From Cytophagales bacterium (GTDB lineage Bacteria; Bacteroidota; Bacteroidia; Cytophagales; Thermoflexibacteraceae), in NCBI GenBank assembly GCA_947457925.1, contig CANGYA010000004.1:1-57413 (forward strand): 57,413 bases of DNA. Direction: 5' to 3'. Both the position numbers and the translations under genes were made by a program. A model generated the notes under the pieces. The model had not been told where the DNA came from and ran no database searches. It saw nothing but the letters and a program-made list of their open reading frames with translations. Below, in pieces: positions 15,321 through 56,224 of this stretch. Numbering within the stretch: the stretch's first letter is position 1; every line of letters starts with the position of its first letter.

Positions 15321-16205
15321 ATGAAAAAAATCATCTTGTTAAGCTGTTTACTGTGGTATGTATGTCCACAATTTACCTTTGCACAAAACACCAACCCAGA
15401 CATTCAAAACCTATTGTTGGGCAAACGGTGGGGGTTGCGGTACTTTATTGAGCAAACCAATAATTTATATGATACCCTGATTCGGGTGCATGACTGCCAA
15501 AACGAATTTATAGAAATTACTGCCAATGGTCGTTTTTTATCGACAGACCTCCTCAAAGAAGGTCGTTGGTCATTGAACGGAGATTTGTTGAAACTCCGCA
15601 AAAGTTCGGGCGGGAAATACAAAAATGTACGCATCAAATATTTGACAAAAGACAGTTTGGTATTGGTAGATGACGAAGTAGCCACAGATGTTTTCATAGA
15701 AACTTACAAACTTTGCGACCTTACAGACACCACATTCATAGACACTCGTGAAATCAAAGAAGTGCGTAAAAGTTGGGGCATGACTGTAGGCGGGCAGACT
15801 TTTCGCGGAACTTTTGTGGAAGTAGGGCTTGCCAATGCCAAATTTGAGTGGAACAAGGTCTTTTATGCTGCCCACGTTGCCGTAGAAGCTGCCCCATGGC
15901 AAAATAATTATGGTATTTCTGCTAATGTATGGTCAGAAGATATTGCGTTGTACGGTATGGGGATTGTAAGTTATACAGATTTTCAAGATGCTATTGTGGG
16001 TTTTCGTCCTATGTTGGGGCTTAGTGCCAACCGCCTACTCAACCAAACATGGACAGCCCATATTGCCTACAGCTATACTTTCTTTCTTGGTTTAAAGAAA
16101 TTTGACAACATTAACCAACACGCCATTACGCTAAGAGCCTATATACCGTTTAGTAATAGTGTGAAAAAAGTACGCAGGATTATTAAACAAGGGGTAGATT
16201 ATTAA
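15321..16205 (+). CDS. Exported protein, lipocalin-like N-terminal region, function unknown
   Basis: This 294-residue protein has a signal peptide ending near FTFAQ. Residues 25-140 look like a lipocalin-type beta sandwich: GKRWGLRYF, then EFIEITANGRFLSTDLLKEGRWSL, then DSLVLVDD. This pattern is common in small Bacteroidota exported proteins. Residues 160-290 alternate hydrophobic and polar residues with aromatic ends, and could form further membrane-associated beta strands. It stands alone between repeat-filled gaps. Function is not assigned. Confidence 0.72.
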   Translation: MKKIILLSCLLWYVCPQFTFAQNTNPDIQNLLLGKRWGLRYFIEQTNNLYDTLIRVHDCQNEFIEITANGRFLSTDLLKEGRWSLNGDLLKLRKSSGGKYKNVRIKYLTKDSLVLVDDEVATDVFIETYKLCDLTDTTFIDTREIKEVRKSWGMTVGGQTFRGTFVEVGLANAKFEWNKVFYAAHVAVEAAPWQNNYGISANVWSEDIALYGMGIVSYTDFQDAIVGFRPMLGLSANRLLNQTWTAHIAYSYTFFLGLKKFDNINQHAITLRAYIPFSNSVKKVRRIIKQGVDY

Positions 16206-16210
16206 AGTTT

Positions 16211-16505
16211 TGTAGCATAGACTTTAGTCCAATGCTATTAAGCTAAGAAAAGTATTTTAAGTGCCGTAGGCACGTAATATTTATAGTAATGCTATTTTCT
16301 TCTATCTCAAAGTGCCGTAGGCACGAAACTATGTCGTGCCTACGGCACTTTAAAAGGGAATTGAGGTTTGTTTTTTCTATAAATATGTCGTGCCTAACGG
16401 CACTAAAAAATAATTTCTTAGCTTAATAGCATTGGACTTTAGTCTGTGTAGTAATTACTTGATTAACAAAATATTATATACACAGACTAAAGTCTATGCT
16501 ACAGG
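16211..16505. repeat. REP-like palindrome interrupted by a second element
   Basis: The outer element is of the ACTTTAGTCTGT family, with left arm TGTAGCATAGACTTTAGTC at 16211-16229 and right part from 16435 to about 16505. It is split by an inner element at 16230-16434. GACTTTAGTC stands on both sides of the inner element (16220-16229 and 16435-16444), consistent with a target-site duplication. This explains most of the 468-base gap 16206-16673. Confidence 0.8.
16230..16434. mobile_element. 205-bp MITE-like insertion with 20-bp terminal inverted repeats
   Basis: The ends are CAATGCTATTAAGCTAAGAA and its perfect reverse complement. Inside are four related copies, in both orientations, of the small palindromic unit GTGCCGTAGGCACG (near 16261, 16312, 16336 and 16388). 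It encodes no protein, so a transposase supplied from elsewhere would be required. Confidence 0.75.
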
Positions 16506-16552
16506 TTTTAATAGTATATATTTTTTGTCGTAATTAGTAATGTTTACAGATT

Positions 16553-16673: not shown

Positions 16674-17945
16674 GTGGATTTATTTGAAAGATTAGTGCAG
16701 AATAAAGGACCTTTGGGTCAGCACTCAGGCGTAGCACATGGCTATTTCGCATTCCCTAAATTGGAGGGAGAAATTGGACCTCACATGAAATTTAGAGGCA
16801 AAGACGTATTGAACTGGAGCTTAAACGACTATATCGGTTTGGCGAATCACCCAGAAGTACGTAAGGCAGACGCAGAAGGAGCAGCTAAATTCGGTTTGGC
16901 GTACCCAATGGGAGCAAGAATGATGTCTGGCAACTCTGATATGATAGAGGAATTTGAGAAGCAATTAGCCAACTTCGTAGGCAAAGAAGATGCAATGTTG
17001 ATGAATTTTGGCTACCAAGGCATTATGTCTGTGATAGATGCTATTTTGAGTCGCCAAGATGCCGTAGTGTATGACTCTGAATGTCATGCGTGTATCATTG
17101 ACGGTTTGAAAATGAACTTTGCAAAACGGTTTGTATTCCCACATAATAACATCGAGAATTGCGAAAAACAATTAGAAAGAGCTACCAAGTGGGTACAAAA
17201 TACAGGCGGTTCTATTTTGGTAATTACCGAAGGCGTATTCGGTATGTTGGGCGACATGGGCAAATTGAAAGAAATTGTTGCCTTGAAAAAGAAATTTAAC
17301 TTCCGTTTATTAGTAGATGACGCACATGGTTTTGGCACTATGGGCAAAACGGGTGCAGGTGTAGGCGAAGAACAAGGCGTACAAAATGAAATTGATTTGT
17401 ACTTCTCTACTTTTGCTAAGTCTATGGCAAGTATTGGAGCTTTTGTGGCAGGACCGAAGGACGTTTTGATGTTCTTGCGTTACAACACAAGGTCACAAAT
17501 TTTTGCGAAAACCCTACCTATGCCAATCGTGTATGGTAACATGAAAAGATTGGAATTGTTGCGTACCAAACCAGAATTGAAACAAAAATTGTGGACTATT
17601 ACGCATGCCTTACAAAACGGCTTGAAGGAAAGAGGTTTTAAAATAGGTGTTTGTGAAACGCCTGTTACACCTGTATTCCTGAATGGTGGCGAAGTAGAAG
17701 CAGCAGGTATGATTGTAGATTTGAGAGAAAACTATGGCGTATTTACGTCTATCGTATTGTACCCTGTAGTTCCTAAAGGTATAATTTTGTTGCGTTTAAT
17801 TCCTACAGCTTCGCACACTTTGGAAGATGTAGAACGTACTATCAAGGCTTTTGAGGCGGTATCAGACAAGTTGAAAAGTGGACACTACGCAGAACACGGT
17901 ATGAAATATGCCATCAGCGTAATGCCAGCTACCACAAATGCGTAA
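16674..17945 (+). CDS. PLP-dependent alpha-oxoamine synthase (KBL / serine palmitoyltransferase-like)
   Basis: This 423-residue fold-type I PLP enzyme belongs to the alpha-oxoamine synthase group, which condenses an amino acid with an acyl thioester. Seen are NWSLNDYIGLANHPEV, YPMGARMMSGN, the cofactor-stacking region YDSECHACIIDG, LLVDDAHGFG, and the Schiff-base lysine in TFAKSMAS. The start is GTG at 16674, immediately followed by the conserved N-terminus; no closer ATG exists. In this phylum such enzymes make sphingolipid bases (serine palmitoyltransferase) or sulfonolipid bases (cysteate acyltransferase). The window does not decide between them, and 2-amino-3-ketobutyrate ligase is less likely without a threonine dehydrogenase nearby. 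Confidence 0.85.
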   Translation: MDLFERLVQNKGPLGQHSGVAHGYFAFPKLEGEIGPHMKFRGKDVLNWSLNDYIGLANHPEVRKADAEGAAKFGLAYPMGARMMSGNSDMIEEFEKQLANFVGKEDAMLMNFGYQGIMSVIDAILSRQDAVVYDSECHACIIDGLKMNFAKRFVFPHNNIENCEKQLERATKWVQNTGGSILVITEGVFGMLGDMGKLKEIVALKKKFNFRLLVDDAHGFGTMGKTGAGVGEEQGVQNEIDLYFSTFAKSMASIGAFVAGPKDVLMFLRYNTRSQIFAKTLPMPIVYGNMKRLELLRTKPELKQKLWTITHALQNGLKERGFKIGVCETPVTPVFLNGGEVEAAGMIVDLRENYGVFTSIVLYPVVPKGIILLRLIPTASHTLEDVERTIKAFEAVSDKLKSGHYAEHGMKYAISVMPATTNA

Positions 17946-43120: not shown

Positions 43121-43199
43121 TGTAACATAGACTTTAGTCTGTGTAATAATTACTTGATTAGCAATGTATTACAGACACAGACTAAAGTCTATGCTACAG
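43121..43199. repeat. REP-like palindrome, ACTTTAGTCTGT family
   Basis: TGTAACATAGACTTTAGTCTGTG and CACAGACTAAAGTCTATGCTACA flank a loop that contains TAATTACTTGATTA, also found in the copy at 16435-16505. It lies between converging genes. Confidence 0.8.
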
Positions 43200-56147: not shown

Positions 56148-56224
56148 TGTAGCATAGACTTTAGTCTGTGTATTTAATGTACTGAAAATCAACTACTGAT
56201 AACACAGACTAAAGTCTATGTTAC
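56148..56224. repeat. REP-like palindrome, ACTTTAGTCTGT family
   Basis: TGTAGCATAGACTTTAGTCTGTG and CACAGACTAAAGTCTATGTTACA flank an AT-rich loop. It lies between the M16 gene and rpmA. Confidence 0.8.

Follow-up and report, generated by a model that had tools for sequence, protein, structure and literature searches.

The stretch of DNA that we analyzed (the window) is 57,413 nt long and comes from a Cytophagales bacterium (GCA_947457925.1, contig CANGYA010000004.1, positions 1-57,413, forward strand). The site described here is intergenic: an upstream open reading frame ends at 16205 and a downstream one, aminotransferase-like as named from its sequence by reading and not via a family search, starts at 16674, both on the + strand. 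Between them lies a 293-bp palindrome (16211-16503) whose outer arms (16211-16229 and 16485-16503) are 100% complementary; the strand from 16205 to 16510, folded as DNA, had a z score of -20.5 relative to shuffles. Within this palindrome is a smaller, non-coding element of 205 bp (Table 1). The preliminary description had given it perfect 20-bp terminal inverted repeats bounded on both sides by the same 10-mer, and this was borne out: the ends are identical over their first 21 bases and, together with the flanking 10-mers, form a wider inverted repeat of 52 nt at 85%. Allowing 3 mismatches, the window contains the 20-mer end two times (shuffles, mean 0.03). Folded as RNA, the element had a z score of -17.6 relative to shuffles. 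Four internal units of one type had also been reported. All four are there, three of them exact (GTGCCGTAGGCACG) and one with an extra base (TCGTGCCTAACGGCACT, 16388-16404).

Table 1. Features of the nested locus and of the uninterrupted palindrome used as its reference
Feature	Position	Strand	Basis
Left arm of outer palindrome, a GTAG-tagged REP unit, TGTAG-CATA-GACTTTAGTC	16211..16229	+	GTAG at 16212-16215
Target duplication (best reading), 10 bp, copy 1, GACTTTAGTC	16220..16229	+	a copy's own two flanks resemble each other more than shuffled pairs do
Non-autonomous element (MITE) with IS4-type ends, 205 bp	16230..16434	.	paired inverted ends, genomic copies
Left terminal inverted repeat, CAATGCTATTAAGCTAAGAAA	16230..16250	+	same ends on IS4-family insertion sequences L148 and L157
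Putative Y1-type module, first hairpin AGTGCCGTAGGCACG and conserved neighbor AATATTTATAG	16260..16286	+	aligns with left side of C14 tnpA
Central palindrome, arms 16309-16326 and 16334-16351	16309..16351	.	loop occupies the place of tnpA in the C14 copy
Putative Y1-type module, last hairpin (CTATAAATATG TCGTGCCTAACGGCACT)	16377..16404	+	aligned with right side of C14 tnpA
Right terminal inverted repeat	16414..16434	-	agrees with left end
Target duplication (best reading), 10 bp, copy 2, GACTTTAGTC	16435..16444	+	direct repeat of 16220-16229
Remainder of REP dimer: rest of left unit, loop, inverted right unit with terminal CTATGCTACA	16445..16503	.	empty-site comparison with 43121-43199
Uninterrupted REP dimer, empty-site reference	43121..43199	.	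at least 42 genomic places of this type

The outer palindrome is a dimer of GTAG-tagged REP units, of which the genome holds hundreds. The exact pattern GTAG-N4/5-GACTTTAGTC was found 394 times in the genome (0 for the reversed pattern), with the GTAG tag at the base of a short stem, and the units among those listed often form +/- pairs. As had been proposed, removal of the 205-bp element and one 10-mer regenerates an intact palindrome: the resulting 79 nt are identical to 43121-43199 at 72/79 positions, ungapped and at equal length, and the palindrome at 56148-56224 is of the same kind with a different loop. With 40 of the 337 candidates scored, intact palindromes of the 43121-43199 type number at least 42 in the genome. 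A search for an orthologous empty site next to the aminotransferase gene downstream found none; among the 30 loci compared, the upstream gene was matched only in the window's own locus and was not adjacent in the 29 others. The sections of PMC3733652 on GTAG-tagged REPs and their RAYT genes give the tag, a short stem and inverted dimers as marks of this superfamily, and the outer palindrome is alike in all three and in its hundreds of copies. It differs in that no RAYT gene flanked by the outer REP was found: none of the three Y1 genes found in this genome has this REP in its flanks. In those same sections, Bacteroidetes are named just for CGTC repeats. Upstream of one of the Y1 genes (C80:13266-13607) we observed CCCACGA..TCGTGGG hairpins, one of them GTAG-tagged and one with a GACTTTAGTC core. 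The outer REPs may have their source in this gene or be connected with it.

The inner element is repeated in the genome. Allowing 3 mismatches, its 20-bp end is matched 62 times (control 0), and the loci that we examined contain 31 paired elements of 153-309 bp. Among the 13 family genomes searched, the ends were found in only this genome and its one congener, the sister species, in which 27 paired elements were examined. The flanking 10-mer is nearly constant: both flanks lie within 3 mismatches of GACTTTAGTC or GACTAAAGTC in 23/30 elements here (L073, at a contig start, has no flank and was left out of the 31) and in 23/27 in the sister species. For these counts, copies with identical 20-bp flanks were counted once, and for the ends CTGTGC, CCGTGC, GCACAG and GCATAG the 10-mer was taken one base inward. 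Past the 10-mer the flanks differ among copies (TGTAGCATA.., CTGTAGCTACG.., TGTACCACA.. and ..CCCC), and a GTAG or GTAC tag stands at the expected position in at least one flank of 21/31 elements here and 15/27 in the sister species. The closest copy, at C129, is 99% identical to the window element and sits in another host palindrome, of another REP type, the identity stopping inside the 10-mer. A nearly constant 10-mer with differing sequence beyond it, together with the C129 copy, argues for insertion into a preferred target and not for one large element. Identical flanks in all copies had been named as the outcome that would overturn the nested reading; the 10-mer comes close to this, but the sequence beyond it does not. 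In two copies the end itself is interrupted, by a 14-nt GTGGGGCTGCCTAA insert in L075 (1564-1600, C49) and by a similar GCAGCCCC stretch in L071 (C24:26740-26770).

To compare the two flanks of each copy, we scored the 57 elements of both species against shuffled partners. Direct flank identity averaged 7.68/10; with shuffled partners it was 6.89 (sd 0.13; p = 1e-4), and the excess held when the two species were taken separately (p = 2e-4 and 3e-4). Where the core is a variant, it is that variant which is duplicated (GACTTCAGTC in L080, GGCTTTAGTC in L143), and duplications were also seen at sites that do not resemble the core (GTCTTCGACC in L151 from the congener, GGGTAGCCTT in L173 from another Bacteroidetes MAG). 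These results, with the differing outer flanks, support the earlier proposal of an element within an element with a 10-bp target duplication. Matches of 9-10/10 were seen in the direct register in 23/57 elements and in the inverted register in 12/57, L129 scoring in both; in the sister species, direct and inverted registers won 13:13 with 1 tie. The inverted cases and the 13:13 split need later recombination or another mode of insertion. As the core is self-complementary except at two central bases, the inverted-register copies may have arisen by later loss or exchange of REP arms. A target duplication of about one helix turn is a mark of IS4-family MITEs, and the 57 elements show 10-bp direct repeats above shuffled partners, with the 12 inverted exceptions.

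Imperfect flank matches were seen in other genomes (8/10 in L118, 9/10 in L141, 9/10 with a 2-base offset in L150, and 9 bp in L124), L148 from Reichenbachiella versicolor is without a direct duplication, and the flank of L157 is cut by a contig end. At the 17 junctions outside the genus, self-complementarity of the 10-mer was 2.24/5 as compared to 1.26 for random 10-mers of the same loci (p = 0.0005), several of these junctions coming from one MAG and therefore not being independent. Since these ends are accompanied by different 10-bp duplications in other places, and since they are carried by two-ended IS4-family insertion sequences, GACTTTAGTC is most readily interpreted as the duplication of a palindromic target site for which there is a preference.

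When 84,980 species were scanned, the end turned up in 64 stretches, of which 47 belong to the Cytophagales MAG JAAFKA01. The sister-species set was drawn from these 47, and the remaining 17 supplied the junctions used for target symmetry. Two of the stretches hold insertion sequences with the 20-bp ends on both sides and an IS4-family transposase, one of 1563 bp in Reichenbachiella versicolor (L148) and one of 1432 bp in a Planctomycetota MAG (L157); a third, from Fulvivirga (L163), has an IS4-family transposase and one end. All three transposases score over the NCBIfam NF033592 (IS4) cut-off and carry the YREK motif Y-2-R-3-E-6-K. A further element (L124, 1275 bp) contains a broken open reading frame below the NCBIfam IS4 cut-off. 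The window element thus has its ends in common with IS4-family insertion sequences, as expected of an IS4-family MITE, and we refer to ends of the CAATGCTATTAAGCTAAGAA type as IS4-type. A 219-bp element with the same ends was seen in the gammaproteobacterium Pseudomonas sp. Irchel s3h17 (L150, 6572-6790), and single ends occur in further phyla too, so that the end sequence reaches far beyond Bacteroidota.

The subgroup features reported in sections of PMC2266710 agree with this assignment. Duplications there are of 10-13 bp in subgroup IS4 and 8-10 bp in IS4Sa, as compared to 10 bp here; the window ends agree at 6/7 positions with the IS4 end consensus -AATR--------WTW---- (position 14 is C) and at 3/3 with the IS4Sa consensus CA------T; and the 1432- and 1563-bp relatives have the YREK motif. 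The window element differs in that it is itself without a transposase.

The full-length insertion sequence with the same ends that had been predicted does exist in other genera, but it was not found in this assembly. No L148-like transposase was detected in this genome at E values up to 1, and no NCBIfam IS4 match over the cut-off was obtained in the 13 genomes of the family. As the assembly consists of 329 contigs, with several element copies at contig edges, the source may be unassembled. The three DDE_Tnp_1 genes of the genome were considered as an autonomous source and rejected: they have other inverted repeats of their own, and a search near them allowing 5 mismatches found no CAATGC-type end. 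The end pattern had 0 matches in viral contigs.

The interior of the element looks like a derivative of an IS200/IS605-type (Y1) element. At C14:25460-26082 the genome carries a gene for a 153-aa IS200/IS605-family transposase (tnpA; PF01797, 1.9e-30; NF033573, 84.7 bits over a cut-off of 55) with hairpins on both sides, the organization of a Y1 HUH transposase between hairpin ends. The left surroundings of this gene aligned with 16260-16328 of the window (score 74) and the right with 16334-16425 (score 99), as compared to 39 or less for shuffles; the interior being an inverted repeat in its own right, reversed controls also reached 74. The alignment gap falls at the central loop, so that the module resembles a Y1 element minus its gene. 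No IS4-type ends were found around the C14 gene with up to 5 mismatches. We redefine the third level of nesting claimed in the preliminary description as a putative deletion derivative of an IS200-type (Y1) element and not merely four repeated units. A Y1 element is not expected to make a target duplication, so the insertion of this layer is presumed.

The stems of the module vary (GTGCC, ACCCC, AGTCC and GTTCC) with pairing kept: the 31 elements contain 90 perfect 5-bp stems of 8 kinds, as compared to 6 or fewer in shuffles that kept base composition alone. Units of the GTGCC type number 74 in the genome, 49 in paired elements and 25 elsewhere, many of the latter in one-ended, degenerate or contig-edge copies. 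A known RNA family was considered for the module and rejected: no Rfam family was matched at gathering score, and the 21 weaker matches, the best being mir-252 at 32.6 bits versus 45, are what any hairpin gives. Free-standing palindromes of the module's architecture, without IS4-type ends, were noticed at L107 (C58), L084 (C89), L104 (C230) and L083 (C84), with the sequences TGCCGTTAGGCACTACATATTGGTAGAAA.. and AGTCCGTTAGGACT... We also noticed a 13-14-nt insert, CAATTCCATTGYGG (variant CAGTTCCACTG..), in the 3' arm, directly after the loop, of level-3 hairpins with unrelated stems in both species (L086, L089, L101, L105, L106, L111, L116 and others). It occurs 13 + 15 times inside elements and 7 times outside them in about 0.6 Mb, 4/7 also in such hairpins by eye, and was found 0 times in 226 kb of other genomes' loci.

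The cargo differs between the two species. The two flanks of the Y1 gene at C14 have matches in 20 and 21 of the 31 elements here and in 7 and 8 of the 27 in the congener. On the other hand, flanks of the congener's Y1 gene (L221) match 19/27 elements there on each side and 0/31 here; four other Y1 loci gave 2/31 on one side (two loci) or none (two loci). The L221 product scores 53.1 for NCBIfam IS200, just below the cut-off of 55, and passes the Pfam Y1 cut-off. The cargo is of GTGCC type in this species and of CAACC type in the sister species, and the flank matches indicate that the two species have different Y1-type cargo between shared ends and at a shared target. No Y1 gene was found inside paired IS4-type ends in the sister species, where 12.5 kb held one end only. 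At that locus (L241, C35:14000-26500) a Y1 gene lies amid tandem hairpin units of about 150 nt and 32-33-nt repeats (GATTTTAATGCGGATTCACGTGCTTT...), with an IS4-type end and a REP as the border on one side.

The explanation that we favor, and regard as highly probable, is a stack of three layers. The host is a REP dimer, built of GTAG, a short stem with the GACTTTAGTC core, a loop and the same unit inverted. Into the core of its left unit a cut-and-paste DDE transposase, supplied in trans, would have inserted the IS4-type MITE, duplicating the 10 bp of the core. If this transposase favors palindromic 10-mers, many of which lie in REPs, nearly all copies would come to share the same duplication. 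The interior would be an IS200/IS605-type (Y1, HUH) element, organized as hairpin, spacer, central palindrome, spacer and hairpin, from which the transposase gene was deleted at the loop of the central palindrome. At the level of sequence, this explanation draws on the ends, the copy number, the differing outer flanks, the direct duplications above chance, the IS4-family relatives and the interior Y1 match. Mobilization would belong to the past, through an IS4-type transposase now absent or unassembled; the nesting order of the second and third layers, and deletion as the origin of the third, we infer.

Three other explanations were weighed against it. The whole 293-bp palindrome could be a single large element, with the outer arms part of its ends and the 10-mers an internal symmetry, as the near-constancy of the 10-mer beside the element and its inverted orientation in 12/57 copies would suggest. 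We give this very little credence. There are several types of outer flank, which stop where the REP stops, the REP stands without the element in hundreds of places, ends without GACTTTAGTC exist in other genomes, and direct matches exceed shuffled partners; decisive are L173 and L151, in which the ends have unrelated flanks and their own duplications. The array as one element was rejected on such copies together with the differing outer flanks. It could also be speculated that the copies spread not by transposition but by recombination or gene conversion among abundant palindromes, for example by template switching on hairpins. Beyond the inverted flanks (12/57), this would account for chimeric ends at which the REP runs straight into the element (GACTTTAGTCTGTGCTATTAAGC at C212, C99, C12 and C14) and for tandem elements with one common core (L114); however, it is improbable given that variant cores and unrelated 10-mers are both directly duplicated, and given exact ends kept across phyla on IS4-family insertion sequences. 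Recombination may well act later on inserted copies.

Another possibility, which concerns the third layer, is that the interior hairpins are structured cargo (an RNA or terminator, for example) that arose within the MITE and was afterwards taken up by the Y1 locus. The 90 stems of 8 kinds, in which sequence varies while pairing is kept, are what selection on structure would produce, and 49/74 GTGCC units reside in paired elements. This is nevertheless unlikely, as the same architecture stands on both sides of the C14 Y1 gene without IS4-type ends, module-like palindromes at C58, C84, C89 and C230 also lack such ends, and no Rfam family was matched at gathering score. A gene-less Y1 element inside an IS4-type MITE inside a REP dimer is the reading that we retain.

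Each of these layers is of a known kind. Palindromic elements derived from IS200/IS605 are known as PATEs. As treated in parts of PMC3733652, these elements and the TIRtrons with their TIRYT genes have a Y1 gene between inverted, partly self-complementary, dispersed repeats, as here. They differ in that the repeats here mostly travel inside an IS4-type MITE. A preference of IS4-family elements for symmetric targets is known from IS231A and IS10/Tn10. The window element is like them in its symmetric targets and unlike them in the sequence of the preferred site; the target specificity of IS231A is mentioned in parts of PMC2266710. Another close likeness is to ISRm22 of Sinorhizobium meliloti (IS4 family, subgroup IS4Sa), all of whose tabulated copies (10/10) lie in REP palindromes, according to sections of PMC1525189 and PMC2266710. 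It has REP palindromes as target and, in the same sections, inserts at the axis of the palindromic consensus, some copies having hybrid, non-matching repeats like those seen here. In contrast, ISRm22 carries a transposase and was reported with 6-bp repeats (PMC1525189), whereas here a MITE with 10-bp duplications, in another phylum, has cargo of a second transposon type. We found no paper on nested MITE/REP/Y1 combinations in the open-access papers searched, and the stacked arrangement with exchangeable Y1 cargo is apparently undescribed as far as our literature searches reach.

These data suggest how bacterial intergenic palindromes build up: REPs concentrate palindrome-seeking IS4-type insertions, and the element then spreads the hairpins of a Y1 transposon. 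Three repeat classes that are usually catalogued separately are joined in one hierarchy, which offers a ready test of palindrome-based target choice and a warning that constant sequence beside a MITE need not belong to the MITE. More tentatively, the IS4-type ends could be a general vehicle that acquires the Y1-type hairpin module that happens to be active in a given host, a possibility that we consider doubtful at present. If true, one small element would be the substrate of two unrelated chemistries, DDE at its ends and HUH inside; REPs would be a landing site as well as cargo, and the 13-14-nt hairpin insert within the cargo would be a fourth layer. The swap of cargo between these two congeneric species amounts to a natural experiment that asks if Y1 modules multiply by traveling with a DDE element.
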